Part shown: in pieces, positions 5,178 through 28,396 of the stretch
Position numbering within the stretch: the first letter of the stretch is position 1
Layout of the letters: the number at the start of each line of letters is the position of its first letter
From: Eubacteriales bacterium
Lineage (GTDB): Bacteria > Bacillota > Clostridia > Lachnospirales > Lachnospiraceae
Assembly: GCA_030524545.1 (NCBI GenBank)
Contig: JAUNGM010000003.1
Coordinates: 137,632-201,631, forward strand
Direction of reading: 5' to 3'
DNA length: 64,000 nucleotides
Notes under the pieces: generated by a model
What the model was told of the DNA's origin: nothing
The model's database searches: none
What the model saw: the letters and a program-made list of their open reading frames with translations, nothing else
Position numbers and translations under genes: made by a program

Positions 5178-6248
5178 ATGCCGAATTTTGATGATTTTAA
5201 ACTTGCGATTGAAGCAATGTCAGGCGGTAAGAATACGGTGCTGTTTGATGATTTGGAAATGCCTTCCGTTGTTGTTCCGTTTGTGAAGGCATTAAACTCC
5301 GATCTGATTGATGGAGGCAGCGCAAACGTGCATCCTGCGTTCAGCGTTGATGGAGTGGAGAAAAATGTCATGTACGTTTCTAAATTCCAGAATATTGTCC
5401 TGAATGACCGGGCGTATTCCCTGCCTATGAGGGACCCGAGAACATCCGTGAATTTTGACCAGGCTGTGACATACTGCCGGAACAAAGGAAAAGGCTGGGG
5501 TCTGATGCCGTATTCCCTGTGGTGTGCGATTGCCCTGTGGTGCAGGAAGAACGGCACAATGCCGAGGGGTAATAATAACTGGGGAAAAGACCATGCTTAT
5601 CCCCATGAAAAGGGCGTACCCTGCACTTTTGAAAGTGTAAATGCCGCATCCCATCCGGGAGAACCGGCACATTGCCTGACTGGTTCCGGACCGGCTACAT
5701 GGTATCACAACTGGATGCCGGATGGAATTGCAGACCTGAACGGTAATGTTTGGGAATGGTGCGCAGGAATGCGGTTGATGAATGGGGAGATTCAGATTAT
5801 CCCATATGCAAACTGCATGGCGCAGGATGCCAGTATGGGGGCGTCCTCTACTCTGTGGAAGGCAATCAAGGCAGACGGGACACTGGTTGAGCCTGGAACC
5901 GCCGGAACACTGAAATGGGATTGGATATCATCCAAACTCCAGCTTACAAACGGTTCAGTGACTTATACCACAGATCAGGGGAATGGATGTCAGTACAAAG
6001 ACATGACGCTTGCATCCGGCTTGACCGCCCCGGAGATTGCCAAAATACTGTTGCTGTATCCGGATGAACCTGGTGGAGATTATGGCGGTGATAACCATTA
6101 TGCAAACCTCACTGGTGAGCGTGTGCCGCTCTGTGGTGGCAGCTGGTACTACGCTTCCAATGCGGGCGTGTTCTGCGTGAACTTGTCCTGCACTCGCTCG
6201 TACTCCGACAGCCCCGTCGGCTTCCGCTCCGCTTTTTGCGAACTGTAA
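5178..6248 (+). CDS. DGR variable protein 1 (FGE-sulfatase/C-type-lectin fold)
   Basis: 356 residues. The core from about residue 70 to the end is a formylglycine-generating-enzyme-like C-type lectin fold: GSGPATWYHNWMPDGIADL, NGNVWEWC (residues 189-196) and C-terminal CGGSW then GFRSAF. This is the scaffold of many DGR targets. The last 40 residues are encoded by variable repeat 1, which differs from the template repeat only at template adenines. The gene lies at the end of the tail cluster, so it is most likely the receptor-binding tip protein (inference). There is no signal peptide. It is followed by avd, the template and the reverse transcriptase. Confidence 0.9.
   Translation: MPNFDDFKLAIEAMSGGKNTVLFDDLEMPSVVVPFVKALNSDLIDGGSANVHPAFSVDGVEKNVMYVSKFQNIVLNDRAYSLPMRDPRTSVNFDQAVTYCRNKGKGWGLMPYSLWCAIALWCRKNGTMPRGNNNWGKDHAYPHEKGVPCTFESVNAASHPGEPAHCLTGSGPATWYHNWMPDGIADLNGNVWEWCAGMRLMNGEIQIIPYANCMAQDASMGASSTLWKAIKADGTLVEPGTAGTLKWDWISSKLQLTNGSVTYTTDQGNGCQYKDMTLASGLTAPEIAKILLLYPDEPGGDYGGDNHYANLTGERVPLCGGSWYYASNAGVFCVNLSCTRSYSDSPVGFRSAFCEL
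6118..6233 (+). repeat. DGR variable repeat 1 (VR1)
   Basis: 116 bases aligned without gaps to the template repeat at 6792-6907. I count 16 differences, all at template adenines (A to T, G or C). Changed codons are mostly AAC in the template and become Ser, Tyr, Cys, Asp or Pro codons. The invariant 3' block (CGGCTTCCGCTCCGCT) is the likely initiation-of-mutagenic-homing segment. Confidence 0.95.
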
Positions 6249-6270: not shown

Positions 6271-6290
6271 TGCCCTGCGGTAGCGGGGCA
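6271..6290 (+). promoter_or_regulatory. Hairpin/cruciform downstream of VR1
   Basis: An inverted repeat with an 8-base stem (TGCCCTGC / GCGGGGCA, one T-G wobble) and a GGTA loop, 38 bases past the VR1 end and after the stop codon. The same design follows VR2. Hairpins with short loops at this place are known target-recognition elements in DGRs of the BPP-1 type. Confidence 0.8.
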
Positions 6291-6314: not shown

Positions 6315-6773
6315 ATGGCGGATGAAAACCACAATACCCCTGAGCCGAACGACACTGAATGTCTGCAAATCCTACAGAAAATTGAGGATATGATCGTATA
6401 TGCCTACCCGCTTATGGAGAAATGGTCCGTCCGTGATATGAGGGCGATAGGAAACAGGATATTCGACTGCATGAATGACATGACCGAACACGCAACCTCA
6501 ATCCGGTATGGATTTTACAAGAAAACGGACATTTCCGCACTGGATAAGAGAAACCATCAGCTTCAGACATATATCAAAGTGGCTTACAAGGTGAAAGCCC
6601 TGAAAGGGTTATCCAGTTACAAAGAGTGGACGAGGCGTTCCGAAGAAATAGGCAATATGATAGGTGGCTTTATAAAAGCTGTATATGAGGGGAATCCTGC
6701 ACCTGGGAATACGGCTAACCAGCGGCAGAAATCATCCAGCAATGGGTACAGCCGGTATAAAAGCAAGAGATAA
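6315..6773 (+). CDS. avd: DGR accessory variability determinant (Avd)
   Basis: 152 residues, mostly helical, between the variable protein and the template repeat. The segment ATSIRYGFYKKTDISALDKR followed by a Leu/Tyr-rich helix fits the four-helix-bundle Avd family, which forms a pentamer that binds the reverse transcriptase and template RNA. The C-terminal 25 residues are Ser/Arg/Lys-rich. Start at ATG 6315 with GGAGGCTGTGAAAAC upstream. Identification rests on position and fold-like pattern. Confidence 0.85.
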   Translation: MADENHNTPEPNDTECLQILQKIEDMIVYAYPLMEKWSVRDMRAIGNRIFDCMNDMTEHATSIRYGFYKKTDISALDKRNHQLQTYIKVAYKVKALKGLSSYKEWTRRSEEIGNMIGGFIKAVYEGNPAPGNTANQRQKSSSNGYSRYKSKR

Positions 6774-6791: not shown

Positions 6792-6907
6792 AGCGTGTGC
6801 CGATCTGTGGTGGCAACTGGAACAACACTTCCAATGCGGGCGTGTTCTACGTGAACTTGAACAACACTCGCACGAACTCCAACAGCAACATCGGCTTCCG
6901 CTCCGCT
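6792..6907 (+). repeat. DGR template repeat (TR)
   Basis: 116 bases between avd and the reverse transcriptase gene, matching VR1 and VR2. In the frame of the variable proteins it is rich in AAC codons (NNY-type positions), the usual design that lets adenine mutagenesis produce many residues but no stops. It contains 28 adenines. Both 3' ends match exactly through CTTCCGCTCCGCT. Confidence 0.95.
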
Positions 6908-7109: not shown

Positions 7110-8270
7110 ATGAAAATCAAGAATGTTTTTGATTTGATATTCTCGGACGAAAATCTGTATGGAGCGATACAGGATGCCTCAAGCGGCAGAAGGTATAACA
7201 AAGATGTGCTTTGTGTCCAGTATGATTGTTGGAATACGATTGCGCAGATACAGAAAGACGTCCGTTCCGGAAGATATGAGATCGACAGATATTATATTTT
7301 CTACGTGTATGAACCAAAGAAACGGATGATCATGTCCATTTCATTTTATCACCGGATTGTGCAGTGGGCGATATACCGTGTGATAAATCCGATTCTCGTA
7401 AAAGGATATATTAAGGATTCTTACGGATGTATTCCCGGTAGGGGTGCCTTATCCGCTATGGAGAGGCTGCACTATTGGGTGAAGTCTACGGAAAAGAAGC
7501 CCGGCACATGGTATTACCTGAAATTGGACATCAGCAAATATTTTTACCGGATTTCGCATGAAGTTCTGAAAAAGATACTGGCGAAGAAAATCAAAGATAA
7601 ACGGTTACTGGGCGTGCTTTATAACATCATTGACTGTAGGCATACGCCGTTTGGTTTGCCACCCGGGAAAGGACCTGGGGAGGTTCCGTTGGAGGAAAGG
7701 CTTTTCGATGTTGGGATGCCTGTGGGAAATTTGCTGTCACAAGTATTCGCCAATGTGTATTTGGATACGTTAGACCAGTTTTGTAAAAGGGTTCTGAAAA
7801 TCCATTACTACGTCCGGTATATGGATGATGTGATTATCCTGTCAGACAGTAAGGCTCAGTTGAATGCCTGGAAAGCACAGATAGAGGCATTCCTTGAAAG
7901 AGAGTTAAGGCTTGCCCTGAATAAGAAAACCTGCATACGTCCCATTTCACAGGGGATAGAATTTGTCGGTTACAGGATATGGCCGCATTATGTAACGATA
8001 CGGAAAAGTACAACTTTACAGATGAAACGTGCCATGAAGCTGAAAGCATACGAATACAGCATCGGGTTGGCATCTTTGGAGGATGTGACAACGACGCTGA
8101 CCTGTTACCTTGGTATGCTCGATCACTGCGACTGCGGCACATTCCGGGAGGAACTTGTGCGTTCCGTGGTTCTTCAAAGGGATTATGAAAAGATGGAAGG
8201 CGTAGACGATGAAACTGAAAATTATTGCGAAGCTCTGGGCAGCGATTTACGACCTGCTTTTCTATATTGA
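7110..8270 (+). CDS. DGR reverse transcriptase
   Basis: 386 residues, full length for DGR reverse transcriptases. The fingers-palm motifs are visible: KLDISKYF with catalytic D140, VGNLLSQ (205-211), the DGR/group-II-like form of motif 4, and YMDD at 237-240. FVGYRIWP follows in the thumb region. The enzyme copies the TR RNA with adenine-directed errors, and the cDNA replaces the variable repeats. No maturase, endonuclease or RNase H domain is present, which separates it from a group II intron. Its 3' end overlaps a small downstream ORF. Confidence 0.95.
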   Translation: MKIKNVFDLIFSDENLYGAIQDASSGRRYNKDVLCVQYDCWNTIAQIQKDVRSGRYEIDRYYIFYVYEPKKRMIMSISFYHRIVQWAIYRVINPILVKGYIKDSYGCIPGRGALSAMERLHYWVKSTEKKPGTWYYLKLDISKYFYRISHEVLKKILAKKIKDKRLLGVLYNIIDCRHTPFGLPPGKGPGEVPLEERLFDVGMPVGNLLSQVFANVYLDTLDQFCKRVLKIHYYVRYMDDVIILSDSKAQLNAWKAQIEAFLERELRLALNKKTCIRPISQGIEFVGYRIWPHYVTIRKSTTLQMKRAMKLKAYEYSIGLASLEDVTTTLTCYLGMLDHCDCGTFREELVRSVVLQRDYEKMEGVDDETENYCEALGSDLRPAFLY

Positions 8271-8753: not shown

Positions 8754-8856
8754 TATATTCCAGGTGTAGATTTTATAGGCTTCACATTTAAAAACGGCGC
8801 ACGAGCCTGTCACGGGGTTCTGCGGCAGGATAAAGAGGCAGGAGGTATCAGGAAAA

Positions 8857-9237: not shown

Positions 9238-9539
9238 GTTTGGACATGTTTTTAGCAATGCTGCTTATTGTTTCCGTATTGACAGGATTGTTCACGGAGG
9301 CGATAAAGAAAACCTTGGATGATTTTGGAAAGGCATACTGCTCTAATATCCTGGCAGGGGCGGTAGCTGCGGTCTTGGCGGTTTTGGTTGATACGGGTTA
9401 TGTGATATTGGCTGAGGCTGCTATAAATTCCAAAATGGCGGTATATTTGATTGCCCTCGTATTGTTGTCGTGGCTGTGCGCCATGGTGGGGTATGATAAA
9501 GTAATTCAGGCAATTTCACAGATTAAAGTGCAGTCCTAA
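9234..9539 (+). CDS. Holin-like membrane protein
   Basis: 101 residues with three predicted membrane helices (about residues 3-22, 38-62 and 70-90) and a short loop carrying charged residues (EAIKKTLDDFGK). Small size, topology and position two genes before the endolysin fit a phage holin that forms lesions in the membrane. It overlaps the previous gene by 4 bases. An intrinsic terminator overlaps its stop codon. Confidence 0.7.
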   Translation: MSLDMFLAMLLIVSVLTGLFTEAIKKTLDDFGKAYCSNILAGAVAAVLAVLVDTGYVILAEAAINSKMAVYLIALVLLSWLCAMVGYDKVIQAISQIKVQS

Positions 9540-9558
9540 AAGCTGGGCTGCATTTTTT
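9529..9558 (+). terminator. Intrinsic terminator within the lysis module
   Basis: TGCAGTCC pairs with GGGCTGCA (one wobble) around an 8-base loop and is followed by six T. The stem overlaps the stop codon of the holin-like gene. It may lower endolysin transcription relative to upstream genes. Confidence 0.65.
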
Positions 9559-9574
9559 GTTGGGAGGTTTGGAG

Positions 9575-9733
9575 ATGGGAAAGGTTATTGCGTATATAGG
9601 TGCGGCGGTTGCAGTTGGGGCAGTCGGATTCGTAGTGCTTCTTTTCCGGGAGTTTAGTTCCTGGGTGGAAGATGTTTACTGCGAGGATTACAGCTGCGGT
9701 GATGAAAGCGAAACAGGAGGTGCGCAGAAATGA
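9575..9733 (+). CDS. Small single-span membrane protein (52 aa)
   Basis: A short ORF with a GGGAGG ribosome site: one N-terminal membrane helix (IAYIGAAVAVGAVGFVVLLF) and an acidic, Cys-containing tail. Its stop overlaps the endolysin start (ATGA). Position and topology suggest a lysis accessory such as a pinholin or spanin-like part, which cannot be proven from sequence. Confidence 0.6.
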   Translation: MGKVIAYIGAAVAVGAVGFVVLLFREFSSWVEDVYCEDYSCGDESETGGAQK

Positions 9734-11390: not shown

Positions 11391-11430
11391 ATACCCCTCT
11401 GCCGGATTGCCCGGTGGAGGGGATTTTTTT
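11391..11430 (+). terminator. Terminator of the late/lysis operon
   Basis: CCCCTCTGCCGG and CCCGGTGGAGGGG form a GC-rich stem around an ATTG loop, followed by seven T. It is the expected end of late transcription. Confidence 0.9.
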
Positions 11431-12156: not shown

Positions 12157-13164
12157 TTAGTTATTCACTATGCTCTCTAATCCTTTCTTAAAATCATCAT
12201 TAAAAGCGTTATAAAGAGTAACGGACCAAGAGCCGTTATCTGTTTCTGCAAGTTGATATTCTAAAAGTCTTGAATCAGAATCTCCATCAAAGCAAATAAT
12301 GAGAAAGTTGTCGAATGAGAGCAATTCTGGATTGTTATTAATGTATTTTACAAGGTTGTTAGCAGCATTATTGATGTCCTGTCCTACGGATTGACCATAA
12401 CCATATTTATCGTCCATGTCATATCTGTAATTTATCACGTATGAAGATCCTGAAAGTTTGTGCGGGAGAGCATCGTTAAATGAATGATAAAACCATAAGT
12501 CATCTTCCTTTTCTGGCTCTGCTGTCGCATCCCCTCCATTAACGCCGTATTTTTTCGCAATTTCACCTTGTGCAATTAATTGACGGTTTTCTATCGTATG
12601 GTTATAAAAAAGAGCCTCATAGAGTATTTGCATTGCAGTAATATGAGTTGATTTACCATCTAAGCAGATAAGGTTTGAGGCATAATCTGAGATATTTTTA
12701 TAATCAGTTATTGCTATTATGCAAGATAAATTTTCACCCATATATGAAAAAGATATTCCGGAATATTTTTCGTCGAATTTGCTAGTGCCTATGAGATAAG
12801 CGCAGTCATGAACCATTTTCTCAACATAGCTCACATTTGAAGAATCATAACAATCTGTAAGATCAACGGATAAAGAAGGATCTTCCTCGGAAACCGTTAT
12901 GAGGGCGGAAGGACATACGGACAAAATTCTTCCTTCAATATCCGAGTGGAGAGCAATATCTGTTTCTGCGCTTGTGTTTGCAGAATATTCAGTGCTTTTT
13001 TCAAGTTCAGAATTGGCAGATGTAGTTGAGCATGCCGTAAGGACAAGGCACACTGCGAGAGATGTGATGCATGCTGTTTTCCTTAAATTGCCCTGCAATT
13101 TGTGTGATAACACATTATACTGAGATTTTTTCGGGGGGTGGGTAAAAAGAATGAGTTTTTTCAT
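12157..13164 (-). CDS. Phage-encoded lipoprotein, unknown function
   Basis: 335 residues on the minus strand, opposite to all neighbours. An extended basic N-terminus leads to a lipoprotein signal with lipobox LTAC (Cys45), so the mature protein should be anchored outside the membrane. The rest is polar and soluble, with no family I recognise. The AGGAGG ribosome site supports this start. Lower GC, own promoter and orientation suggest a moron (lysogenic conversion gene). An operator-like half-site (AACTCAT on its strand) lies near its promoter region. Confidence 0.75.
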   Translation of the reverse strand: MKKLILFTHPPKKSQYNVLSHKLQGNLRKTACITSLAVCLVLTACSTTSANSELEKSTEYSANTSAETDIALHSDIEGRILSVCPSALITVSEEDPSLSVDLTDCYDSSNVSYVEKMVHDCAYLIGTSKFDEKYSGISFSYMGENLSCIIAITDYKNISDYASNLICLDGKSTHITAMQILYEALFYNHTIENRQLIAQGEIAKKYGVNGGDATAEPEKEDDLWFYHSFNDALPHKLSGSSYVINYRYDMDDKYGYGQSVGQDINNAANNLVKYINNNPELLSFDNFLIICFDGDSDSRLLEYQLAETDNGSWSVTLYNAFNDDFKKGLESIVNN

Positions 13165-18371: not shown

Positions 18372-18740
18372 ATGCAAAATATTATTGAGTTTATCAAATC
18401 AGAGATGGCAGCAAGGGGCATGACGTATGATCAGTTGGCAACGTATACAGGTATGACGAAGCAAAATCTGTGGCTGAAAATGAACAAGAGCGTTGCCCCG
18501 AATTTTGAAACAATCAAGAAAATCCTTGAAGGGCTGGAATACGAGCTTGTGATCGAGAAAAAGCAGGCTGCCGGGGAAAGTGCAGAAAACGAGGATTTGA
18601 AGCGCTTTTTTGAGAGTGCGGAGGAGGAACAGGTCAGTTATGAGTGTGTGGAAAAACTTCTTTCTGCTGTAGGGTATGAACTGAAAATAAAAACTCATAA
18701 AAATGAGCAAAATGTAAAAAAGGGTATTGACATCTACTAA
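18372..18740 (+). CDS. XRE/Cro-type HTH regulator
   Basis: 122 residues. Residues 1-60 are a classic helix-turn-helix (EMAARGMTYDQLATYTGMTKQ, then NFETIKKILEGL). A second, similar short segment near the C-terminus (YECVEKLLSAVGYELKIK) echoes the first domain's last helices. The last codons contain an operator dyad and the -35 of cassette 3, so the protein may regulate its own downstream operon. It is a candidate binder of the AACTCA-type dyads. No peptidase (CI-type) domain. Confidence 0.75.
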   Translation: MQNIIEFIKSEMAARGMTYDQLATYTGMTKQNLWLKMNKSVAPNFETIKKILEGLEYELVIEKKQAAGESAENEDLKRFFESAEEEQVSYECVEKLLSAVGYELKIKTHKNEQNVKKGIDIY

Positions 18741-18781
18741 CTACGTGTTAAAGTATAATCATAAACTCAGTAAAATGAGTT
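18692..18781 (+). promoter_or_regulatory. Early promoter-operator cassette 3
   Basis: -35 TTGACA (18727-18732) is followed by CTAC..ACTACGTGTTA as in cassettes 1 and 2. The -10 is TAAAGT (16-base spacer) or TATAAT further on (18754-18759). Downstream dyad AACTCAGTAAAATGAGTT (18764-18781); upstream dyad AACTCATAAAAATGAGCA (18692-18709) inside the HTH gene. Spacing differs from cassettes 1 and 2. Confidence 0.7.
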
Positions 18782-19099: not shown

Positions 19100-19312
19100 A
19101 TGAATTTCAAAAAAATAGAAATTTGCAAATCGTGCGGCCGCCCGGAGTATTGGGGCGATATGCGGTGGCTGTCCGGCAGATGTGTTTGTAGAGATTGCTA
19201 CCGGGCGGATTATGAGAGCCAGACAGGGAAAATTTATGTATGGGATGACCTGGACGGGAAACGTCCGACACGGGAGGAATACGAGGAGCAGGAGGAAAAC
19301 AAAGATGCGTAA
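19100..19312 (+). CDS. Zinc-finger-like small protein (70 aa)
   Basis: CKSCGRPEYWG and CVCRDC form a four-Cys zinc ribbon in the first 35 residues, followed by an acidic tail. It overlaps the GHKL ATPase gene by 8 bases and is probably co-translated with it. Confidence 0.6.
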   Translation: MNFKKIEICKSCGRPEYWGDMRWLSGRCVCRDCYRADYESQTGKIYVWDDLDGKRPTREEYEEQEENKDA

Positions 19313-20423
19313 ATATGAGTTGAGCATTAGTTCAGATTATGTTCCGTCATGGGGGATTGTTGAGGCGGTCAGGGAGTTCTTTCAGAACGCCATTGATGAA
19401 GAAACCAGGGACAGTAGCAATAAAATGATGTTGTCCTATGACGAGGAAAAGGAAATGCTGACCATCGGGAATAAGCACAGCGAGCTGGATATCAAAACGC
19501 TGTTATTCGGAAATACAACGAAAAATACCGATGCGGAGATGATTGGCAATCATGGGGAAGGGTACAAGATTGCTACGGTGGTTCTTCTCAGGAATGGGAA
19601 AAATGTTGTGTTTTATAACTACTGCCGCCGGGAAGTGTGGAAACCAAGGCTTGTGAAATCCCGGAAATATGATGGGATGCTGGTCCCAACCTTTTTTGTG
19701 GAAACATCCGCCGTATGGGAAAAAGTACCGGAACACAGCCTGTTAATTACGATTGAAGGGATTACCCAGGAGGAGTACGAGGAGATAAAAGCAGCAAACC
19801 TCCATTTGCAGGAATATACCAAAGATCAGACCATGTACGGGGATGTTTTAAAGGATGAACGCCACATGGGGAAAGTATTTGTCGGAGGGTTGTACATATG
19901 TGATGAGCCGAGGCTGGAAATTGGTGTTGACTTCAAACCGTGTTATGTACGGTTGGAACGGGACCGCAGCATGGTAAATTCATTTGATGTGCAGTGGTAT
20001 GCTTCAAGGATGGTAGAGTCTGCCAATGATGCTGAATTGACCAAAAAATCCCTGGATTCCTACAGCGGTTACTACATCAATTCATATTTGCTTTCGGATG
20101 ATCTGAAAAATGAGATTGCCGAAGAATTTATTAATGAGTACGGCGCAAAAGCAGTTCCGATATCCAATCAGGAAGATATGGAAAGCATGAAAAAGAGAGG
20201 ATATAAGCCCGTAATCGTGTCTAAGGCAAAGAAAGATGTTATTTTGCAGTCGGAATATTTTGCGGATGTAGAGGAGGAAAACAGGCGCATCCGGGAGATG
20301 CAGAAACCTTTGTACGAAAGATTCTGTGAGTTTGCAGAGAAGATCGAGGGGAAACTTACAGAGGATGAGGTCACGGAGTTATACGGATTTTTGGATGAAT
20401 TGGAAGAACGAGAGGAGGACTAA
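19305..20423 (+). CDS. GHKL-fold ATPase (Hsp90/histidine-kinase-like ATP-binding domain)
   Basis: 372 residues from ATG 19305 (GGAGGAAAACAAAG upstream). VREFFQNAIDEE is the N-box with Glu24 and Asn28, and GNHGEGYKIA (residues 81-90) is the lid-region glycine motif, so an ATP-binding Bergerat fold is very likely. The C-terminal half (to residue 372) is unassigned, ending in a coiled coil. There is no HisKA or Hsp90 middle domain. Its role in the phage is unknown; remodelling of host proteins or defence-related functions are possible. Confidence 0.7.
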   Translation: MRKYELSISSDYVPSWGIVEAVREFFQNAIDEETRDSSNKMMLSYDEEKEMLTIGNKHSELDIKTLLFGNTTKNTDAEMIGNHGEGYKIATVVLLRNGKNVVFYNYCRREVWKPRLVKSRKYDGMLVPTFFVETSAVWEKVPEHSLLITIEGITQEEYEEIKAANLHLQEYTKDQTMYGDVLKDERHMGKVFVGGLYICDEPRLEIGVDFKPCYVRLERDRSMVNSFDVQWYASRMVESANDAELTKKSLDSYSGYYINSYLLSDDLKNEIAEEFINEYGAKAVPISNQEDMESMKKRGYKPVIVSKAKKDVILQSEYFADVEEENRRIREMQKPLYERFCEFAEKIEGKLTEDEVTELYGFLDELEEREED

Positions 20424-20426
20424 GAG

Positions 20427-21350
20427 TTGGAAAGAGTTTATTACACGATTAATGAGGAGTCAGCAAAAGCAGCGCACGAAATGATGTCATTTTCTGATTA
20501 TAAAGTGGGTTTGCTGACGGCGGAATACAAGGGGTATGTAGACAGGGCGTATGATCTTGCCGATGAAGTTGCAGAGATGAGGCCAGAGGAGGCAGAGCGG
20601 GTTTATGGGTTGGCGGCAAGGTATTCAAAGAAAATGGCTGACAATCTGAATGCCAAAAGCAGGATCGGGTGTATGTGTCCTTCCGTGATGATTTCCGGAA
20701 CCGGAAATTTCCCTGTGAGAAAGAAGGAAAAGCAGAACGCTGCTGCGGACAGAAATTATAAAGAGTTTCAGGATATTCAGAATATTCTTGATAAAATCCG
20801 GGGAATCGCAAACGGGAAGGAAATCATCAGATCAGGTGATGCGGATGCGCTGGAGAAACTGGAAAAGAAGCTGTCCGGATTAAAGGAAGAACAGGAACGG
20901 ATGAAAGCGACAAATAAAGCTATCCGGATGAAGGACGCAGCGAAGGGTGACAGGACTTTGCGTGATATGGGATATTCAGACGAACAGATTACCGAACTGC
21001 GGAAACCGGATTTCTGTGGACGGATAGGTTTTCCGGATTATGCCCTCAAAAATAATAATGCCAATATTCGCAGGATTGAAGGGCGTATCAAGAAGTTGAG
21101 AGAGGAGAAAGTACGGGAGAATCAGGAACAGGAAAACCAGTTTTTCCGAGTGGTGGAAAACACGGATATTATGCGGTTGCAGTTGTTCTTTAATGACAAG
21201 CCGGATGCCGGGACAAGGGATATTCTAAAAAAGAACGGTTTCCGGTGGAGTCCGAGAAATACTTGCTGGCAGAGGCAGTTGACAAATAACGCAAGATATT
21301 CCATGAAACGAGTGTTGAAAGAATTGGAGGATGCCGTTGATGGAAAATAA
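20427..21350 (+). CDS. DUF3560-like mobile-element protein
   Basis: 307 residues from a TTG start placed 8 bases after GAGGAGG. The C-terminal motif ILKKNGFRWSPRNTCWQRQL resembles the end of DUF3560-like proteins of phages and conjugative elements. The middle is coiled coil (ALEKLEKKLSGLKEEQERM). It follows the GHKL ATPase by 3 bases, so the two may work together. Function unknown. Confidence 0.6.
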   Translation: MERVYYTINEESAKAAHEMMSFSDYKVGLLTAEYKGYVDRAYDLADEVAEMRPEEAERVYGLAARYSKKMADNLNAKSRIGCMCPSVMISGTGNFPVRKKEKQNAAADRNYKEFQDIQNILDKIRGIANGKEIIRSGDADALEKLEKKLSGLKEEQERMKATNKAIRMKDAAKGDRTLRDMGYSDEQITELRKPDFCGRIGFPDYALKNNNANIRRIEGRIKKLREEKVRENQEQENQFFRVVENTDIMRLQLFFNDKPDAGTRDILKKNGFRWSPRNTCWQRQLTNNARYSMKRVLKELEDAVDGK

Positions 21351-21627
21351 CAAAAAGTATGTGACAACCAGGGCGGTCTATAAAGCGATCAAGAAATATG
21401 ATCATCAGCAATTTGATGAGTTCTGTAAAAGCGTGTATGTGGAGGGTTACAATGCTGGCTTAAAACAGCCTGCAGAAGAACCGGAGGCGAGTGTAAGCAT
21501 AGAGGAAGTGCTGAAGGTTATCGGAGAGGTAAAAGGTGTAGGACCTGCATTGACTGGCAAGATTAGAAATGCCGTGGACAATATGATTGCTGAGAGGAGG
21601 ATAAAGGGTGAAAAACAAATTAACTGA
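21340..21627 (+). CDS. Small protein with helix-hairpin-helix-like C-terminus
   Basis: ATG 21340 is preferred over the one 9 bases earlier because GGAGG would touch the latter. The segment VIGEVKGVGPALTGKIRNAV resembles a helix-hairpin-helix DNA-binding motif. 95 residues, overlapping genes on both sides. Confidence 0.55.
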   Translation: MENNKKYVTTRAVYKAIKKYDHQQFDEFCKSVYVEGYNAGLKQPAEEPEASVSIEEVLKVIGEVKGVGPALTGKIRNAVDNMIAERRIKGEKQIN

Positions 21628-21838
21628 CCTGAATGATCACCTGTTTGCAGAATTGGAAAGACTGTCAGATGAAGAATTACAGGGTGAGAAGTTAGACGAG
21701 GAAATCAGACGGGCGGAGGCGGTATGTGGAGTATCTACTCAGATTATTGCCAACGGCACATTGGCATTGAGAGCGGAAGAGTTTAAAGATAAAGCTATGT
21801 CTGCCAGTGCAACGGTTCCTAAGTTTTTGGAGGGGTAG
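21608..21838 (+). CDS. Small early phage protein (76 aa)
   Basis: GTG start 7 bases after GAGGAGG. A helical, acidic first half (HLFAELERLSDEELQGEKLD) resembles small phage regulators of the DUF6148/YonK kind only loosely. No firm family. Confidence 0.6.
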   Translation: MKNKLTDLNDHLFAELERLSDEELQGEKLDEEIRRAEAVCGVSTQIIANGTLALRAEEFKDKAMSASATVPKFLEG

Positions 21839-21840
21839 CA

Positions 21841-22494
21841 ATGGGGCAAATTCACACCTGGACTGATGAAGAAAAGGAGTTTCTACGTCGGTGTGTTAAA
21901 AATCATACCTGGAAAGAAGCAACAGAGATTTTTAATCTGAAATTCGGATGTTCTTTGACAAAAGAAGCTATAAAAGCGGCTGGAGACCGGTATGGAATAC
22001 GGACGGGTAGAACGGGATGTTTTGAAAAAGGCCATGTTCCTGCAAATAAAGGAAAGCATAATCCAACAGTAGGGAGGATGGCGGAAACGCAGTTCAAAAA
22101 AGGCAATATTCCGGCAAATCATAAGCCCGTGGGAACCGTGAGCATCCGGAATCATCATAAGCGCGGACAGAGATATGTTTATGAGAAAATTGCAGAGCCT
22201 AACGTATGGAGAATGAAACACATTCTTGAATGGGAACGGCATAATGGCCCGGTTCCGAAGGGCAAAGTAATTGTTTTCGCAGACGGAAACAGTCTGAATA
22301 CAGATATAGAAAATCTTGTTATGGTGGACCGTTCACAGCTTGCCGTGATGAACAGATGGAATATAAAGGGAGCCAATAAAGAACTAATGGAAACTGCGGT
22401 GAACACAGCAGCATTGAAAATATCCATATCAAAGGCAAAGAAAAGCGGAAAAGAGAGGAGGAAACGCAGAAATGATACAGGAGATAGAACTTAG
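21841..22494 (+). CDS. HNH endonuclease
   Basis: 217 residues. The N-terminal helix-turn-helix-like part (WTDEEKEFLRRCVKNHTWKE) is followed by Gly/Lys repeats (GCFEKGHVPANKGKHNP, QFKKGNIPANHKP) and an HNH core (WRMKHILEWERHNGPVPKG, FADGNSLNTDIENLVMV). This is the common free-standing phage HNH family. It may nick DNA in packaging or act as a homing nuclease. The basic C-terminus overlaps the ParB-like gene. Confidence 0.85.
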   Translation: MGQIHTWTDEEKEFLRRCVKNHTWKEATEIFNLKFGCSLTKEAIKAAGDRYGIRTGRTGCFEKGHVPANKGKHNPTVGRMAETQFKKGNIPANHKPVGTVSIRNHHKRGQRYVYEKIAEPNVWRMKHILEWERHNGPVPKGKVIVFADGNSLNTDIENLVMVDRSQLAVMNRWNIKGANKELMETAVNTAALKISISKAKKSGKERRKRRNDTGDRT

Positions 22495-23296
22495 CAAATT
22501 AAAGGTTCATCCAAAAAATGTGAGGAAAACGTATAGGGACATTGACGAACTGGCAGAGAGCATTAAGGCAAAAGGAATTTTGCAGAACCTTACGGTTGTT
22601 CCGGATCCCGACGAAGATGGTACATATTTTGTTGTTATCGGGAACCGGAGGCTTACGGCGGCAAGGCAGGCAGGGCTTGAAACGGCCCCGTGCTTCGTGA
22701 CTGAGATGAGCGAAAAAGACCAGGCGGCGACTATGCTGTTGGAAAATATGCAGAGGGATGATCTGACAATACATGAGCAGGCACAGGGATTTCAGATGGT
22801 ACTTGACCTGGGAGAAACAGAGGACGGGCTTGCGGAAAAGACGGGATTTTCCAAAACAACCATCCGGCGCAGGCTTAATATTGCGAAGCTTGACCAGGAG
22901 GAGCTTCAGAAGAAAGAAGCGGAGGACAGTTTTCAGCTTTCCCTTACTGACCTGTATGAGTTAGAAAAGATCAAGAGTGTGGAAAAGCGGAATAAAATAT
23001 TAAAAAATGCCAGCAATTCCCGGGATATTACGGCCAGTGTTAGGAGGGAAATTGCAGATGAAAAGAGGGAGGCAAATTCCAAAAAGCTGATTAAAATGCT
23101 GAAAAAGAATAGCATTGAAGCTGCGCCGGATTCCGTATCAATGGAGATATATACCGGGAAGTGGGAGACAGTAAAGACATACAGTCTGACTGAGGATGTG
23201 CCGAAATCGGTTGATGTAAAGCCTGACGGTAAGGAAAAATTATATTACTACAAGCAGTGGAACGAATTGAAAGTTATCCGTAGGGCAAAAAAGTAA
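22472..23296 (+). CDS. ParB/Spo0J-like nuclease-domain protein, zero-frame product
   Basis: 274 residues. ELSKLKVHPKNVRKTYRDID, VIGNRRLTAARQAGL and ENMQRDDLTIHEQA are the ParB N-terminal signature, followed by a helix-turn-helix (TGFSKTTIRRRLNIA). In phages such proteins act in DNA processing or partition. It ends at TAA 23294, directly after A_AAA_AAG. The -1 frame then continues with sequence that looks like the natural C-terminus, so the full protein may be about 445 residues. Confidence 0.85.
   Translation: MIQEIELSKLKVHPKNVRKTYRDIDELAESIKAKGILQNLTVVPDPDEDGTYFVVIGNRRLTAARQAGLETAPCFVTEMSEKDQAATMLLENMQRDDLTIHEQAQGFQMVLDLGETEDGLAEKTGFSKTTIRRRLNIAKLDQEELQKKEAEDSFQLSLTDLYELEKIKSVEKRNKILKNASNSRDITASVRREIADEKREANSKKLIKMLKKNSIEAAPDSVSMEIYTGKWETVKTYSLTEDVPKSVDVKPDGKEKLYYYKQWNELKVIRRAKK
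23287..23293 (+). promoter_or_regulatory. Slippery heptamer A AAA AAG
   Basis: In the ParB frame the heptamer reads A-AAA-AAG and is followed at once by TAA. A -1 slip leads into GTA AAA AGG GAG, the open frame of 23293-23808. This is the E. coli dnaX type of slippery site. No clear stimulatory hairpin is visible downstream. A one-base deletion in an A7 tract would give the same picture. Confidence 0.5.
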
Positions 23297-23808
23297 AAAG
23301 GGAGCTGACACCGGAAGAGAAGAAAAGAGCCGAGAAGGACAGCCGGAAAAAGAAGATCAAGGCGATTGCAAAAGATATGGCAGTACGGAGAAGAGAATTT
23401 ATTCTTGATATCATTTCCGGGAAAATAAAAGCTGTGGACGATGCCGAAAAACTTTGCGTGATGTTATGGCAGGTAATGCGGGACAGCAATGCCTATATTT
23501 CCAACAGCAGTTTCTTATCCTATATTGCTGGCAAAAGCTCTTATGACCTCCAGGATGATGAAAGGGCTGCAACACAGGAGAAAGTAGATAAACTGAATGT
23601 CGTTGAACAGACTTTGATATCTGCCGATAAGGGAATAGAAAGCCTGGAGTTTACAGAGTGGAACGGAGTTTTTCGGAAGAATACTGGCAGGATTATGAAA
23701 ATTTTTTATGAGGCACTCGGCATGTATGGCTTTTCGTATAGTTCCGATGATGAGGCGAAACTGGTTGAGGGTACGCATGATCTTTATATACAGGAAGAAA
23801 AGAAATAG
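23293..23808 (+). CDS. C-terminal part of the ParB-like protein in the -1 frame
   Basis: The frame is open from 23284 and lacks a plausible start codon with ribosome site until ATG 23377. Yet the upstream codons read as real protein (KRELTPEEKKRAEKDSRKKK), continuous in style with the ParB-like protein. After that come IAKDMAVRRREFILDIISGK and a helical domain. It is therefore probably made as a frameshift fusion, or the gene is a recent frameshift mutant. Independent translation from 23377 (143 aa) is the alternative. Confidence 0.6.
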   Translation, partial: VKRELTPEEKKRAEKDSRKKKIKAIAKDMAVRRREFILDIISGKIKAVDDAEKLCVMLWQVMRDSNAYISNSSFLSYIAGKSSYDLQDDERAATQEKVDKLNVVEQTLISADKGIESLEFTEWNGVFRKNTGRIMKIFYEALGMYGFSYSSDDEAKLVEGTHDLYIQEEKK

Positions 23809-23822
23809 AGGAGGACAAGAAG

Positions 23823-24989
23823 ATGGCGAAAATTATTATGACAAAGAGAGATAATTACGGAGATTATCAGAAAGAAATCACCTGCAAGGTGGAAGGGAAA
23901 GAAGCGTTTGCAAAGGAGATGTGCGAGCGTTTTATGGCGGACAATTACGGCAAGGGTAATATCACCATTCATGGAGCGACAGTCAAGATTGGCGATTTGC
24001 CGCAGGAAGAGAAGGAACTGAATGAGGAAGTGGTTGCGATTTATGATAATGCAGGCATTCCGTCATTCATGTATCGGATTACCAAAAAGAAAAATTCAGA
24101 CCTTTTTCCCGGAGGCAGTGAAAAGGTTCATCCGGCCTTTATTATCGGGGGTGAGGAATATGACGAGATTTACATTTCTGTATATCCGAACTGCAATATC
24201 AATGGGAAACCGTACAGCCTTCCACATGCAAAACCGTGGACAAACATCACGAATGATAAAGCGGCAAAGGCTTGTTTCTCAAAAGGCGAAGGCTGGCATC
24301 TCATGACAAGAGCTGAATGGGGACTTGTTGCAGACATCTGCGCCATGAATGGAACGTTCCCTCATGGAAATACAAACTGCGAAAAATACTATGGGGATGA
24401 AACAGAGAAGGGGGAATCTTCCGGGGATTATGGGATTACATTAACAGGTTCCGGACCGGCTACATGGACGCACAATCACCAGCCGGACGGCATTCATGAT
24501 CTTTGCGGTAATGTTTGGGAAATGGTTAGAGGATTCCGTATCAGAAACGGCTTTTTGGAAGCAGCAAAAAATAATGATGCGGCGACGGATATTGACCTGA
24601 CTGCGGAAGGGGACGACTGGTGTAGCGTGGTTGATGATGAAGGAAAGCCAATCAGGATATCTGTTAATGATGATGGTGATATTGTGATTACATCCAAAAA
24701 GGAAACGAAAGATACTGAGCGTAATTATGATGGCTGCGAATGGGGAAATGTCACAATGGACTGCGATGCCGAAGCGCTGAAAGAACTGGCATTGTTCCCT
24801 GGAGAGCCGAAAGCATATTTCTATGTTGACAGTACATATGGAGAATATCTGCCGCTCTGTGGTGGCAGCTGGCTCAGCACTTCCAATGCGGGCGTGTTCG
24901 ACGTGAGCTTGTCCTCCACTCGCGCGTACTCCAGCAGCGGCCTCGGCTTCCGCTCCGCTTTTTACCGCAAACAGGTTACTGAAAACTGA
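23823..24989 (+). CDS. DGR variable protein 2 (remote target)
   Basis: 388 residues. Residues 1-75 are a unique N-terminal domain (MAKIIMTKRDNYGDYQKEI). The rest is the same FGE-sulfatase/C-type-lectin fold as variable protein 1 (GSGPATWTHNHQPDGIHDL, CGNVWEMV, then LCGGSW and GFRSAF). The last 40 residues come from variable repeat 2, which matches the template 18 kb upstream. It sits among early genes after the ParB-like protein, not with tail genes, and has no signal peptide. Its ligand is unknown. Confidence 0.9.
   Translation: MAKIIMTKRDNYGDYQKEITCKVEGKEAFAKEMCERFMADNYGKGNITIHGATVKIGDLPQEEKELNEEVVAIYDNAGIPSFMYRITKKKNSDLFPGGSEKVHPAFIIGGEEYDEIYISVYPNCNINGKPYSLPHAKPWTNITNDKAAKACFSKGEGWHLMTRAEWGLVADICAMNGTFPHGNTNCEKYYGDETEKGESSGDYGITLTGSGPATWTHNHQPDGIHDLCGNVWEMVRGFRIRNGFLEAAKNNDAATDIDLTAEGDDWCSVVDDEGKPIRISVNDDGDIVITSKKETKDTERNYDGCEWGNVTMDCDAEALKELALFPGEPKAYFYVDSTYGEYLPLCGGSWLSTSNAGVFDVSLSSTRAYSSSGLGFRSAFYRKQVTEN
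24850..24959 (+). repeat. DGR variable repeat 2 (VR2)
   Basis: 110 bases aligned without gaps to TR 6798-6907. There are 16 differences at template adenines and one non-adenine change (T to G, giving Asp where TR reads Tyr). The pattern differs from VR1 at many sites, so the two repeats were diversified independently. Confidence 0.95.
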
Positions 24990-24998
24990 TAGACTGAT

Positions 24999-25018
24999 TG
25001 CCCCGTGGTAACGGGGCA
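24999..25018 (+). promoter_or_regulatory. Hairpin/cruciform downstream of VR2
   Basis: A perfect 8-base stem TGCCCCGT/ACGGGGCA with a GGTA loop, 40 bases past the VR2 end and 10 past the stop. The loop and nearly the whole stem match the VR1 hairpin although the surrounding DNA differs. Confidence 0.85.
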
Positions 25019-25039: not shown

Positions 25040-25666
25040 ATGGAGGAATTAAAATACGTTACATATAAGCATTTGAAAAAAGGACAGGAGATTAACGGTA
25101 TTAAGAAAGAAAATGCAACATGCGGACTGACGGGATATGTAAAAGACGTAAATGTTGCCTATGTAACTATAGAAAAGTGGACGCGTGGAGGGAATGAAGA
25201 ACGCTATACTACAGATTGGATGTTCGGAATCAAATTAACAGATGAGGAAATCCGGCAGAAGTATAATGCAAAAGCGGGTGAAGTAGTAGCTGCGATACAG
25301 AATAGGCTTGAAACATATGAGATTGGCTATCATGAGATGTGGAACGGGTGGTTATCATCAGATCCGTGGGAATTGGCACAGGCATGTGTGAAGGAAAAAT
25401 TAAAGGTGCTGGGAAATTGCCTGGATATTGTGCCAAAACATGCTTACTTCTCTGGTGATGTTCTTGACACAGGCGTATGCGTAGAGGATGAGGACGGCGA
25501 TAGATTTTGGTGTCACTTCCGAAGCGATAGCATTGAAATTATGACAAGAAGATACGAAAGGTATCAGGAGTATATGAAGCGGGAAAAGACAGCAGAATAT
25601 GACAACTATTCAGTTGCATGGGAAACGGAAGAAGAAATAGCAAAGAGGAAGGAAGATCTTAAATAA
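25040..25666 (+). CDS. Early phage protein, unknown (208 aa)
   Basis: Soluble mixed alpha/beta protein. N-terminal KYVTYKHLKKGQEINGIKK, central GLTGYVKDVNVAYVTIEKWT and a C-terminal basic/acidic helix. Directly downstream of variable protein 2 with GGAGGATGAAAGC as ribosome site. I do not recognise it. A chaperone or partner of the variable protein is possible by position only. Confidence 0.6.
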   Translation: MEELKYVTYKHLKKGQEINGIKKENATCGLTGYVKDVNVAYVTIEKWTRGGNEERYTTDWMFGIKLTDEEIRQKYNAKAGEVVAAIQNRLETYEIGYHEMWNGWLSSDPWELAQACVKEKLKVLGNCLDIVPKHAYFSGDVLDTGVCVEDEDGDRFWCHFRSDSIEIMTRRYERYQEYMKREKTAEYDNYSVAWETEEEIAKRKEDLK

Positions 25667-25668
25667 TT

Positions 25669-26430
25669 ATGGAATTAAAAATTGTTACGCAGTTCGGAGA
25701 AAACATTTTTGATATGCCTGGCGAGAAAGTGATTGAGATTTTACATCACGCTATGCTGTATGCTGAGGAAAAAGAAAAGTCTGTCGGAGCATCTCGGCAG
25801 GAGCCAGCAGGAAGGCCGCTCATTGACGGAGGCGTCGTTGGGGCAGCAAAAGATGATGAGAAAATAGCCGAAAAGCAAAATAGCGGGGAAACGGCGATTA
25901 CGGAGCCTAAGAGGATGTCGGATAAAACGAAAGAACATACCCGGAACGACAGCCTATTTGGGACCGAGTGGAGAAACGCCACATCCGAAAGTAAAGTGCC
26001 GAGAGATTATGGAGGTCATGAGGAAGGTTACAGAGGATTTCTTTATATCAAATGCCCAGTTTGCGGGAAAACAAAAGGATTTTGTACGAAATCTAATATC
26101 ACGGATCATATCTGTGAATGCGGACATAAATTCCAACTGGAAGGATTGAAACCAATGTACGTCCATTGTGAGTGCGGGAGAGATTTCAAGTATTTTACCA
26201 ATATTGATGATGAGAGATTTGAATATCACTGTATGAGTTGTGGATCTCCGGTTGATATGCGGATTAATAAAAGGGGAACAGCATATGTTAATTTAGTCCA
26301 AAATCGCTCGGGGGGGGGGATTTCTGATACTGGAAATTTTGGTATAAAGGCAGGTGGAAGATATGACCGAAAATATAAAAAAGCAGGGACGGGCAGAATG
26401 CCCCTCCTGTGGCCAACTAATAGGGTTTGA
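25669..26430 (+). CDS. Zinc-ribbon phage protein with a poly-G tract near its end
   Basis: 253 residues as read. After a low-complexity N-terminal half come several Cys pairs (KCPVCGKTKGFC, CECGHKF, CECGRDF, CMSCGSPVD), a multi-zinc-ribbon region. At 26310-26319 a run of ten G sets the frame of the last 40 residues, which overlap the next gene by 68 bases. With nine G the protein would stop at TAA 26345 just before the next gene; with eleven it would stop at TGA almost at once. The annotated C-terminus is therefore uncertain. Confidence 0.6.
   Translation: MELKIVTQFGENIFDMPGEKVIEILHHAMLYAEEKEKSVGASRQEPAGRPLIDGGVVGAAKDDEKIAEKQNSGETAITEPKRMSDKTKEHTRNDSLFGTEWRNATSESKVPRDYGGHEEGYRGFLYIKCPVCGKTKGFCTKSNITDHICECGHKFQLEGLKPMYVHCECGRDFKYFTNIDDERFEYHCMSCGSPVDMRINKRGTAYVNLVQNRSGGGISDTGNFGIKAGGRYDRKYKKAGTGRMPLLWPTNRV
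26310..26319 (+). repeat. Homopolymer tract of ten G
   Basis: A G10 run inside the 3' part of the 25669 gene in DNA of moderate GC. Length changes would switch the C-terminus among three versions. It may be a phase-variation tract or a sequencing artefact. Confidence 0.7.
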
Positions 26431-26683
26431 TATAAAAAATCCATTAAGAAAAACGCAACTTATCAAATGTCCCGTATGCAAAAAGTTTAGTTGGACGGCA
26501 ACGGATACTATATCGGGATGCTTGTTACAGTTGGCGAAATATGAGGAAACAGGCTTTTCGCCTGTTCAGGTTATGGCTTTGCGGGCGTTGTGGAAGGAAT
26601 GCAGAAAATATCCGGAGATTAGAGCAAAATTGGATGAATGGGAGGCGAAACTTAGTGAGATTGGAACCGAGAAAAAAGAGTGA
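26363..26683 (+). CDS. Zinc-ribbon protein (106 aa)
   Basis: ATG 26363 follows AGGCAGGTGG. CPSCGQ and CPVCKK form a zinc ribbon in the first 45 residues, and the rest is helical (LAKYEETGFSPVQVMALRAL), a pattern common in Firmicute phage Lar-like or hypothetical proteins. Role unknown. Confidence 0.65.
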   Translation: MTENIKKQGRAECPSCGQLIGFDIKNPLRKTQLIKCPVCKKFSWTATDTISGCLLQLAKYEETGFSPVQVMALRALWKECRKYPEIRAKLDEWEAKLSEIGTEKKE

Positions 26684-26867
26684 TCGGGGCGGATATGCGT
26701 GTATGCCATTAAAGAAGAATATTCCGGAAGGGCAGCCGGGATGGGAACTGGTACAATGTCCGGAATGTAGAAACTGGTGCTGGCGGACGCCATTACTGAA
26801 AGCGGCAGAGAAAACAGGAGCGAAAGCATTGTGTACGGAATGCGCATTGCGGAAAGGATTGAAATGA
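26655..26867 (+). CDS. Small zinc-ribbon protein (70 aa)
   Basis: GTG 26655 has GGAGG at 9 bases distance and extends the protein upstream of ATG 26703. CPECRNWCW and CTECALRKG form a zinc site. It overlaps the preceding gene by 29 bases and the next by 4. Confidence 0.55.
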   Translation: MRLEPRKKSDRGGYACMPLKKNIPEGQPGWELVQCPECRNWCWRTPLLKAAEKTGAKALCTECALRKGLK

Positions 26868-27385
26868 CGAATAGGGAAAAAGCAATCATTATGGCCCATA
26901 CCGGAATTTGCATGTTGGAAGGTGAAAACTTTGATACTTACCATAGATACATACAAGAAATCATGGGGAGGCCGGTATATACACATGAGCTTGCTGAAAA
27001 AAGTGTGATGGATGAAATTGCGGAAAAGAGCAGAACGGACTTTCTCTCAATTTGCAAGAAACAAGAAGCGGACAGCCGTATGGAGGGAGTAACGCCTGTG
27101 TTTCGAGAGCGTGAAAGCGTCATGGCAGTTGATTACGCAGACGGAACCGGGGAGGCGAAGAAAATCAAATATGCGGACTGGTTATGCCCTTCCTGCGGAT
27201 GGTTTGTAGGCGAAAGGTATCTGCCGAGGATGCACAGTCAGCAAAAGTCCGATTATTGTTCCCGGTGCGGACAGGCTATTGATTGGACAAAGATCACCAA
27301 AGAGGAATGGGATACGGCAAAGAAGCGGATGGAGGAATTAAACGCTAAAAATTCTTTTCAACACAGAAATCAGAAAGGCGTGTGA
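26864..27385 (+). CDS. Early phage protein with C-terminal zinc ribbon (173 aa)
   Basis: ATG overlaps the previous stop (ATGA). The N-terminal 45 residues (EKAIIMAHTGICMLEGENFD) resemble a motif found in several Lachnospiraceae phage proteins. The C-terminus carries CPSCGWFVG and CSRCGQAID. Function unknown. Confidence 0.6.
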   Translation: MTNREKAIIMAHTGICMLEGENFDTYHRYIQEIMGRPVYTHELAEKSVMDEIAEKSRTDFLSICKKQEADSRMEGVTPVFRERESVMAVDYADGTGEAKKIKYADWLCPSCGWFVGERYLPRMHSQQKSDYCSRCGQAIDWTKITKEEWDTAKKRMEELNAKNSFQHRNQKGV

Positions 27386-27391
27386 AAAAAT

Positions 27392-27580
27392 ATGGGAAAA
27401 GGGAATGTTAAGAAAAAGAAACGGGCAAAAGGAACATGTGAAACCTGCGGCAATACTGTTTATTGTGGTGACGGATGCCATATCTGTCTGGAAAGCCAGG
27501 AGGGGCCTAAGTATGTAATAGACGACTGGGAACCGGCAGAGGATTATTTCTGGTGTGGTGGGAAAAAGTATGAGGAATAG
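27392..27580 (+). CDS. Small zinc-binding protein (62 aa)
   Basis: Basic start MGKGNVKKKKRAKG, then CETCGNTVYCGDGCHIC, a dense Cys/His cluster, then an acidic tail. Probably a one-zinc protein of unknown role. Confidence 0.6.
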   Translation: MGKGNVKKKKRAKGTCETCGNTVYCGDGCHICLESQEGPKYVIDDWEPAEDYFWCGGKKYEE

Positions 27581-27591
27581 GAGAGAAAAAG

Positions 27592-27873
27592 ATGGATTTT
27601 GAAACAAAGGTTGTTACATTTATGAGCGCATTATTTGATGTATATATGGATGAGGAAGAACGGCAAATGAACTTCCTGCCAAGGATTGAACTGAAAGAGG
27701 AAACACTGACAGAAGATTTTACCTGTATGATTTATGCTATTATGATGTTTTATAAGCAGGTGACAAATGATAACATTGACGCACTGGGGTTTTCACATAT
27801 ATGTAATAGGCTGGTGTTTCAACAGATATGCAAAGATCATGGCATCAAATTAGGGGAGGCGCCGCATGAATAA
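27592..27873 (+). CDS. Early phage protein, unknown (93 aa)
   Basis: Helical protein (KVVTFMSALFDVYMDEEERQ, then YAIMMFYKQVTNDNIDAL) just before ssb, overlapping it by 8 bases. No motif recognised. Coupling to SSB suggests a role in DNA replication. Confidence 0.6.
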   Translation: MDFETKVVTFMSALFDVYMDEEERQMNFLPRIELKEETLTEDFTCMIYAIMMFYKQVTNDNIDALGFSHICNRLVFQQICKDHGIKLGEAPHE

Positions 27874-28396
27874 GGTTATACTGATGGGAAGATTGACAAG
27901 GGATATTGAAATACGGTATTCAGCAGGGGACAGCGCTATGGCGATTGCCCGGTATACCCTGGCAGTACCGAGGAGATTTAAACGGGAAGGAGAGGCAGAT
28001 GTTGATTTTATATCCTGTGTCGCATTCGGAAAAGCTGCTGAATTTGCTGAGAAATATTTCCGGCAGGGAACAAAAATTGCGATTACCGGAAGAATACAGA
28101 CTGGCTCTTATACGAACCGTGACGGTCAGAAAGTATATACAACTGATGTCGTAATCGAAGATCAGGAATTTGCAGAGAGCAAGAGTGCAAACGAAGCAAA
28201 CGCCAATCGGCAGAGGAGTGAAGGAAACACAGGCGGTCAGAGCAGCGTCCGTCAAAATGGCGGAGGCTATAAAAACGGAAATAGTCAAGGCCAGCAGGGG
28301 AGAGGGCAGTCCTATCAGCAGCAGTCTTTTTCTACAGACAAAGACGGATTTATGAATATTCCGGATGGAATAGATGATGAACTGCCTTTCCATTAA
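27866..28396 (+). CDS. ssb: Single-stranded DNA-binding protein
   Basis: 176 residues. The OB-fold signature is clear: MNKVILMGRLTRDIEIRYS, FISCVAFGKAAEFAEKY and GRIQTGSYTNRDGQKVYT. A Gly/Gln/Asn-rich linker leads to the acidic tip DGIDDELPFH, close to the canonical DDDIPF-like end that recruits replication and repair proteins. Full length and probably functional. Confidence 0.95.
   Translation: MNKVILMGRLTRDIEIRYSAGDSAMAIARYTLAVPRRFKREGEADVDFISCVAFGKAAEFAEKYFRQGTKIAITGRIQTGSYTNRDGQKVYTTDVVIEDQEFAESKSANEANANRQRSEGNTGGQSSVRQNGGGYKNGNSQGQQGRGQSYQQQSFSTDKDGFMNIPDGIDDELPFH

Follow-up and report, generated by a model that had tools for sequence, protein, structure and literature searches.

The stretch of DNA analysed here, referred to as the window, comprises 64,000 nucleotides, at C54:137632-201631 of a 4.34-Mb genome, and covers the tail end of a prophage, its diversity-generating retroelement (DGR), the lysis genes and an early region, while tail-sheath, weakly terminase-like and integrase-like (phrog_95) genes of the same prophage lie upstream of it. 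Features described below are on the plus strand unless stated otherwise. A late-type DGR target gene (5178..6248, 356 aa), classified by HMM and adjoining baseplate genes, is a candidate for a tail adhesin. It carries the first variable repeat, VR1 (6118..6233), in which 16 of the 28 template adenines and no other site are changed over 116 nt, and it is followed by a hairpin (6271..6290) with an 8-bp stem, including one G-T pair, and a GGTA loop (6279-6282). Behind these lie the gene for the accessory protein Avd (bAvd; 6315..6773; PF22296, E 2e-12; phrog_3206), the template repeat (TR; 6792..6907), recognised from the TR-VR alignment and common to VR1 and VR2, and the gene for the DGR reverse transcriptase (RT; 7110..8270; PF00078, E 7.8e-22; phrog_1423).

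A strong terminator-like site is found at 11394 behind the endolysin gene, and three promoter-like repeats (13264, 15730 and 18714), which are 71-83% alike and each contain TTGACA, stand ahead of early gene groups; the last of these (18714..18765), to which the other two are related, precedes the operon that bears VR2. A stricter pattern recovers two of the three repeats, and three copies of their 13-base core are present in a relative (G402, locus L160) in which the genes flanking the early target are ordered as in the window. The repeats also share extra conserved bases, possibly a common repressor site. Between the lysis and the early genes, a gene on the minus strand (12157-13164) matched neither Pfam nor PHROG; judged by eye, it starts with what looks like a lipoprotein signal (LTAC), and it is a possible lysogenic conversion gene. 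In a search for attachment sites, no common repeat longer than 12 nt was found between the stretches compared.

The second target gene, of the early type (23823..24989, 388 aa, phrog_2889), has an FGE-type C-lectin domain as judged by sequence, begins with ATG and is preceded by GAGGAGG at 23808-23814. VR2 (24850..24959, as first reported) lies in its 3' part with 16 of 27 template adenines and one of 83 other sites changed, and behind it is a hairpin (24999..25018) with an 8-bp stem and a GGTA loop (25007-25010), whose final base coincides with the end of the originally noted stretch. Upstream (19182..23808) are genes for a phrog_6077 protein, a primase-like protein (phrog_19458), an HNH nuclease and a ParB-like protein, and downstream (25040..28396) further early genes recognised by profile matches, including SSB at 27866-28396. 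The target gene thus sits 18 kb downstream of VR1 within a plus-strand run of primase-like, HNH, ParB-like and SSB genes, and the placement in an early gene region given by the original prediction agrees with this replication operon. The ParB-like gene named there as its neighbour does directly adjoin it, but is split into two ORFs (22472-23296 and 23377-23808), where the relative G402 has one ORF of 445 aa (L160, 3284-4621). A run of ten G at 26310-26319, inside ORF 25669-26430 next to the early target, may indicate phase variation.

One DGR template serves two targets here, and VR2 is a genuine DGR target. It aligns to TR without gaps over 110 nt, in an element where both RT (PF00078) and Avd (PF22296) are present. 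The differences from TR fall almost solely at adenines (16 adenines and no other site in VR1; 16 adenines and one other site in VR2), in agreement with the 16 adenine substitutions first reported. The probability that at least 16 of the 17 VR2 mismatches would hit the 27 template adenines by chance is 2.8e-11, and a chance repeat is ruled out by this bias. Among the 27 adenines common to VR1 and VR2, 16 are changed in each and 12 in both, only six of the latter to the same base; the two substitution patterns therefore differ, as had been claimed.

The hairpins begin 37 nt (VR1) and 39 nt (VR2) after the end of the repeats, and DNA folding gave -8.2 kcal/mol (z -3.5) for the first and -10.4 kcal/mol (z -5.2 against shuffled sequences) for the second. 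Of 22 early targets, 15 have a hairpin with a 4-nt G..A loop behind them, and of 11 late targets, 8; the same holds for 3 of 722 control ORFs with a minimum length of 150 aa, some of which are not real genes. The scan required a stem of at least 6 for targets and 7 for controls, all target hairpins had stems of at least 7, and none was detected behind the remaining seven early and three late targets. An ordinary terminator was considered for the VR2 hairpin and rejected, since no T run follows, the position is not among the terminator-like sites and so few of the controls carry such a structure. The published account of the BPP-1 DGR, in which Mtd is the target, resembles the window in TR-VR adenine mutagenesis, Avd, RT and a GRNA-loop hairpin behind VR; the latter, with a stem of 7-10 bp, is described as needed for efficient homing and conserved in phage DGRs (PMC3240598). 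Two of the 15 early-target loops read GTTA, outside GRNA, and the spacings in the window exceed the 4-34 bp between VR and hairpin in the set reported by Guo et al. (PMC3240598).

A C-lectin fold of the VR2 protein is predicted by sequence comparison. Its match to the FGE-sulfatase profile (E 7.7e-4) is below the cut-off of that profile, and the one solved structure that it matches significantly in sequence is TaqVP (PDB 5VF4), the DGR variable protein of Thermus aquaticus, at E 3e-35 for the VR2 protein and 1.6e-62 for variable protein 1, the product of the late-type target. TaqVP aligns with the late-type N-terminus too, and is described as a monomer with a single C-lectin domain (PMC6328139). 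The different N-terminal domain first ascribed to the VR2 protein proved to be an extra stretch of about 70 aa, the other ~300 aa being homologous to variable protein 1. Early and late proteins have in common a segment around D-x-x-G-x-P-S as well as the FGE/C-lectin domain. The late N-terminus, M..[NG][FY][DNE], begins 48 of the 54 late proteins of full length and none of 45 early ones, and the VR2 protein does not have the N-terminus shared with the phage's own tail-adjacent target that would mark an Mtd-type adhesin.

At least three forms of N-terminus occur among the early proteins, namely a stretch of 50-80 aa with 'EG..F', which is the form of the VR2 protein, a Cys-rich stretch (L018, L019, L020, L187, L190) and a few residues only (e.g. 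L022, L023, L029). The Cys-rich form in these five proteins presumably resembles DUF1540; Pfam made no DUF1540 call on it. Of ten early N-terminal stretches searched against Pfam, one had weak matches below the cut-off, and a further nine early stretches had none. A tblastn search of a phage collection with three early N-termini returned nothing at E up to 1, and an HMM of the early N-terminus matched early targets alone, apart from one marginal match at E 0.8. The absence of a signal peptide, also part of the original prediction, finds agreement in a hydropathy scan, on which it is based here, with a membrane-like stretch in none of the 45 early proteins.

The two-target layout recurs. When the target ORFs of the collected loci were sorted by HMM, 45 distinct ones proved to be early-type and 59 late-type; 54 of the latter are 320-470 aa long, the other five being fragments or longer, and four (L027, L033, L122, L126) fit the late model weakly and may be of other kinds. 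A second prophage in the same genome (contig C2, ~69-99 kb; L049, L050) has the same two-target DGR layout, its early VR matching its TR over 67 nt only, and the layout is also present in Dulem virus 37 and FP_Lagaffe. In a first tree, 22 early and 11 late proteins split with support 100/100. A second tree, from which one long-branch early protein was left out and for which every second full-length, well-scoring late protein was taken, separated 44 early proteins from 26 late ones together with three outside phage targets (BalMu-1, a Klebsiella phage and VHML) with SH-aLRT 97. The early proteins are one old clade, separate from their late paralogues, and both trees rule out that the early target arose recently by duplication of the late one.

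In BalMu-1 and VHML the target comes after tail genes and has RT behind it, and that of the Klebsiella phage comes after structural genes, with no RT annotated nearby. From this, a place beside the tail genes is probably the ancestral state, from which the early clade would be derived. The early-type gene is an optional component of these phages, being present in three of nine records of at least 45 kb that were reached via the late target. In one genome (G076) an early target was found and RT was not matched.

Genomic surroundings of the targets were compared over 41 early loci in 39 records, a sample that includes one Fusobacterium naviforme prophage twice (G399, G442) and the near-copies G397/G398, G424/G425 and G428/G429, and in which SSB, ParB and baseplate matches far from the phage (e.g. 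G282, G381, G440) as well as farther second ParB copies are dropped. A phage-linked SSB gene occurs in 18 of the 41 early loci, in every case within 3.8 kb of the target and in its orientation, and ParB-like genes are linked to 28, in 20 of them within 6 kb. Fifteen loci have neither within 6 kb, partly through contig ends, and this counts against the early reading. Late targets have SSB or ParB within 6 kb in none of 24 cases. Baseplate_J is within 3.6 kb of the late target in all 19 contigs bearing it.

These surroundings bear on the weightiest rival explanation, that the virion carries the VR2 protein as a further receptor-binding protein whose gene lies in an unusual place, such that two adhesins would widen or double the choice of receptors. 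It draws on the C-lectin/FGE family and the TR common to both targets, on the common orientation of the two targets at each of the 20 early loci whose contig also bears a late one, and on the suggestion of a doubled effect by the authors who described Lagaffe_CP (PMC11792537). Yet three small genes of the tail cluster (phrogs 8734, 9010 and 7177) are found in the 1.5 kb ahead of the target at 35, 36 and 28 of 38 late loci, respectively, and at none of 31 early ones, and Baseplate_J, on the contig for 18 of the 41 early loci, never comes closer than 11.4 kb (median 27 kb). The unrelated early N-termini would likewise be unexpected if both proteins fitted a common baseplate socket, and the late N-terminus, as described above, does not occur among early proteins. 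The VR2 gene itself lies outside the tail/baseplate cluster in which an Mtd-type adhesin would be found, being distal to the structural genes and inside the replication operon. On this evidence we regard a second virion adhesin as unlikely.

Genes around the early target were also tallied by family, using same-strand ORFs of at least 70 aa, called with a crude gene caller, within six ORFs of the target at 21 early loci. Among these 147 neighbour proteins a DNA-methyltransferase profile comes first (8), before ParB-like proteins (7) and SSB (5); the methyltransferase profile is phrog_498, which matches the window's ParB-like protein too. At the head of the Pfam and PHROG tallies stand ParB, methyltransferase-profile, SSB, helicase-loader and PAPS-reductase families. 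Replication families dominate, and the 25 most frequent families listed include no tail or head family and, methyltransferases aside, none named for anti-defence. No neighbour gene is constant beside the early target across the 21 loci. One record (G410, L159), with an early target 3.5 kb from a late one, was examined as an early target inside a tail cluster and rejected, being a decayed prophage with fused ORFs. The fusions in this record join RT with a transposase and a methyltransferase with the tail sheath.

In 18 phages, which include the sibling pairs G397/G398 and G427/G439, one TR fits both VRs, with non-adenine mismatches totalling nine for the early and eight for the late repeats. 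The best match of the early VR is the TR of its own phage in 19 of 21 records, the exceptions being G397, where it is second to that of a sibling, and G399, which has no TR in its stretch; the VR is thus kept in step with TR while the bodies of the proteins have long been separate. Pooled over the early VRs, 267 of 495 adenines and 43 of 1771 other sites are changed relative to TR, the C2 prophage of the same genome (67 nt aligned) being excluded and G399 included, and by subtraction of G399 the counts become 260 of 486 and 14 of 1666.

Variation at VR2 is ongoing, as seen in relatives. The density of differences in the VR is at least 2.5 times that in the body in five of six close early pairs, and 1.3 times in L186/L182; for instance, L175 and L176 differ at 21 of 135 sites of the VR window and at one of 996 elsewhere. 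A VR2 that stays invariant where VR1 varies, named in the original prediction as an outcome that would speak against it, is therefore not what is seen, and both VRs are reported to vary among 18 genomes cognate to Lagaffe_CP (PMC11792537). dN/dS, computed on four of the six close early pairs, is 0.16, 0.09 and 0.13 for the bodies of three pairs and 5.8, 3.6 and 2.2 for the matching VRs; in the fourth (L175/L176) body dS is 0 and VR dN/dS 6.4. In the relatives, early bodies are under purifying selection and VRs under diversifying selection. Among eight close late pairs, one (L113/L112) has no VR difference; the two targets are identical over the 135-nt VR window while their bodies differ at 13 of 951 sites, and this DGR looks idle.

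Such a pattern has to be set against the explanation that VR2 is a passive landing site, a relic duplication which the DGR overwrites to no functional effect. The presence of an early target in G076, where RT is not matched, and in a minority of the long records reached via the late target would fit with it. Against it stand the purifying selection on the body, the hairpin retained behind most early targets, the maintenance of an old clade in many phages and signs of being inherited in part together with the late target, the body distances of the two types being correlated over 12 phages (Mantel r 0.49, with 7 of 5000 permutations as high). We consider a passive site very improbable, and the stricter case of a dead copy is ruled out by the VR-focused variation, the selection and the co-inheritance.

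Both VRs are written from one template and then mostly diverge separately, as follows from the few non-adenine mismatches and a small excess of shared bases. Adenines changed in both VRs carry the same base in 66 of 151 cases against 59.0 +/- 4.5 expected by permutation (p 0.08), and the 151 co-changed adenines compare with 138.7 expected (p 0.018). The two repeats are thus not fully independent, which counts against the early reading; the slight excess may reflect hot spots or shared constraint. It could also be taken in favour of an extracellular role, in which the protein, released by lysis or displayed by the lysogen, would coat receptors, debris or mucus and prevent loss or superinfection. 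The lectin-like binding face agrees with such a role, since a protein on the scaffold of the adhesin could bind the same class of receptor, but the shared-base excess is small and non-significant and no signal- or membrane-like stretch appeared by hydropathy in the 45 early proteins. An extracellular route accordingly seems to us improbable.

The reading we prefer, with about as much confidence as doubt, is that the VR2 protein is an early, non-virion, cytoplasmic ligand binder derived from a tail-adhesin family and probably aimed at a variable molecule of the host or of rival phages. A role other than that of a tail adhesin had been proposed in the original prediction, with cytoplasmic ligand binding among several options, and this option now appears the better one on the strength of the replication operon, the lack of a secretion or membrane signature by hydropathy, the distinct N-terminus, the clade and the neighbours. 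Expression in the lysogen, another of those options, finds no support in an operon of replication genes. A single DGR, comprising Avd, TR and RT, would diversify two old paralogues by copying TR with adenine errors into both VRs. The late-type product, encoded behind the baseplate genes, would most likely be the tail-tip adhesin, while the early product would be made alongside the replication proteins and remain in the cell, where its variable C-lectin face may bind a molecule that is not the same in every host or rival phage. As they are written from the same TR, the two proteins would have the same binding-site scaffold, with selection picking variants of each separately. Counter-defence or exclusion of competing phages in early infection would be the most likely use, as the best fit to the operon position; early expression, cytoplasmic location, absence from virions and the nature of the ligand are what we infer from the genomic data. 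Nevertheless, the VR2 protein is related to the Mtd adhesin group, and the one phage DGR target with a demonstrated role in the sources consulted is Mtd of BPP-1, a tail adhesin; both points count against the early reading, as do the early targets behind which no hairpin was detected, the short TR match of the C2 prophage's VR2, the inconstant neighbour genes with few families of anti-defence type, and the closeness of the two targets in the decayed record G410.

Remote second VRs in phage DGRs have already been published, including one in a member of the early clade. In the Faecalibacterium phage FP_Lagaffe (Lagaffe_CP), gp40 groups with the early side in both trees and is followed by exonuclease, Mu Gam, ERF and SSB genes. 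One TR matches the VR of gp40 over 105 nt, with 11 of 25 adenines and nothing else changed, the VR not being at the very C-terminus of the ORF. The second VR of Lagaffe_CP was read by its authors as that of a second Mtd-like target, possibly doubling the effect on host range, and the word 'early' does not occur in the main text on this phage (PMC11792537). The second target in Quimbyvirus, likened here by its description, is similar to VR2 in being distal to the structural module, judged non-structural, endowed with a C-lectin domain and served by the same DGR; it differs in that these are phages of Bacteroidota and in lying on the opposite strand, in a defence/counter-defence island with methyltransferases (PMC8008677). 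A distal second VR, close to genes of counter-defence, is likewise described for four species of inducible gut prophage (PMC12629997).

Two targets are stated to occur in about 13% of the DGR cassettes analysed (PMC10743442), and Roux et al. remark that their own survey would miss remote targets (PMC8144416). A table of a Clostridium clostridioforme prophage lists two phrog_2889 proteins with Avd and RT, where a second VR is not noted (PMC11318856). In the portions of the open-licence literature covered, we found no account of a clade-wide placement in the early operon, of the split into early and late paralogues or of the hairpin at both targets, and the early placement at the level of the clade seems to be unreported.

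Phage DGRs are best known as tropism switches. If the preferred reading of an intracellular binder is true, phages hypermutate something that acts inside the cell, with a whole diversified clade among replication genes and apart from the virion genes. More broadly, and with greater doubt, temperate phages of Bacillota may possibly maintain, for use inside the cell, a dedicated hypervariable binder that is produced early, alongside replication proteins, and varied by the retroelement of the tail adhesin, as an antibody-like repertoire against rival phages or the defence proteins of the host. Since the clade has cultured members, such as Lagaffe in Faecalibacterium, the ligands of non-structural DGR targets can be put to the test.

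The number of targets of one type also varies between loci. Tandem early-type targets, one of them very divergent, are found at 128-1117 and 1441-2430 of one locus (L065, G029:C88), and tandem late-type targets at 8502-9587 and 10001-11089 of another (L114).
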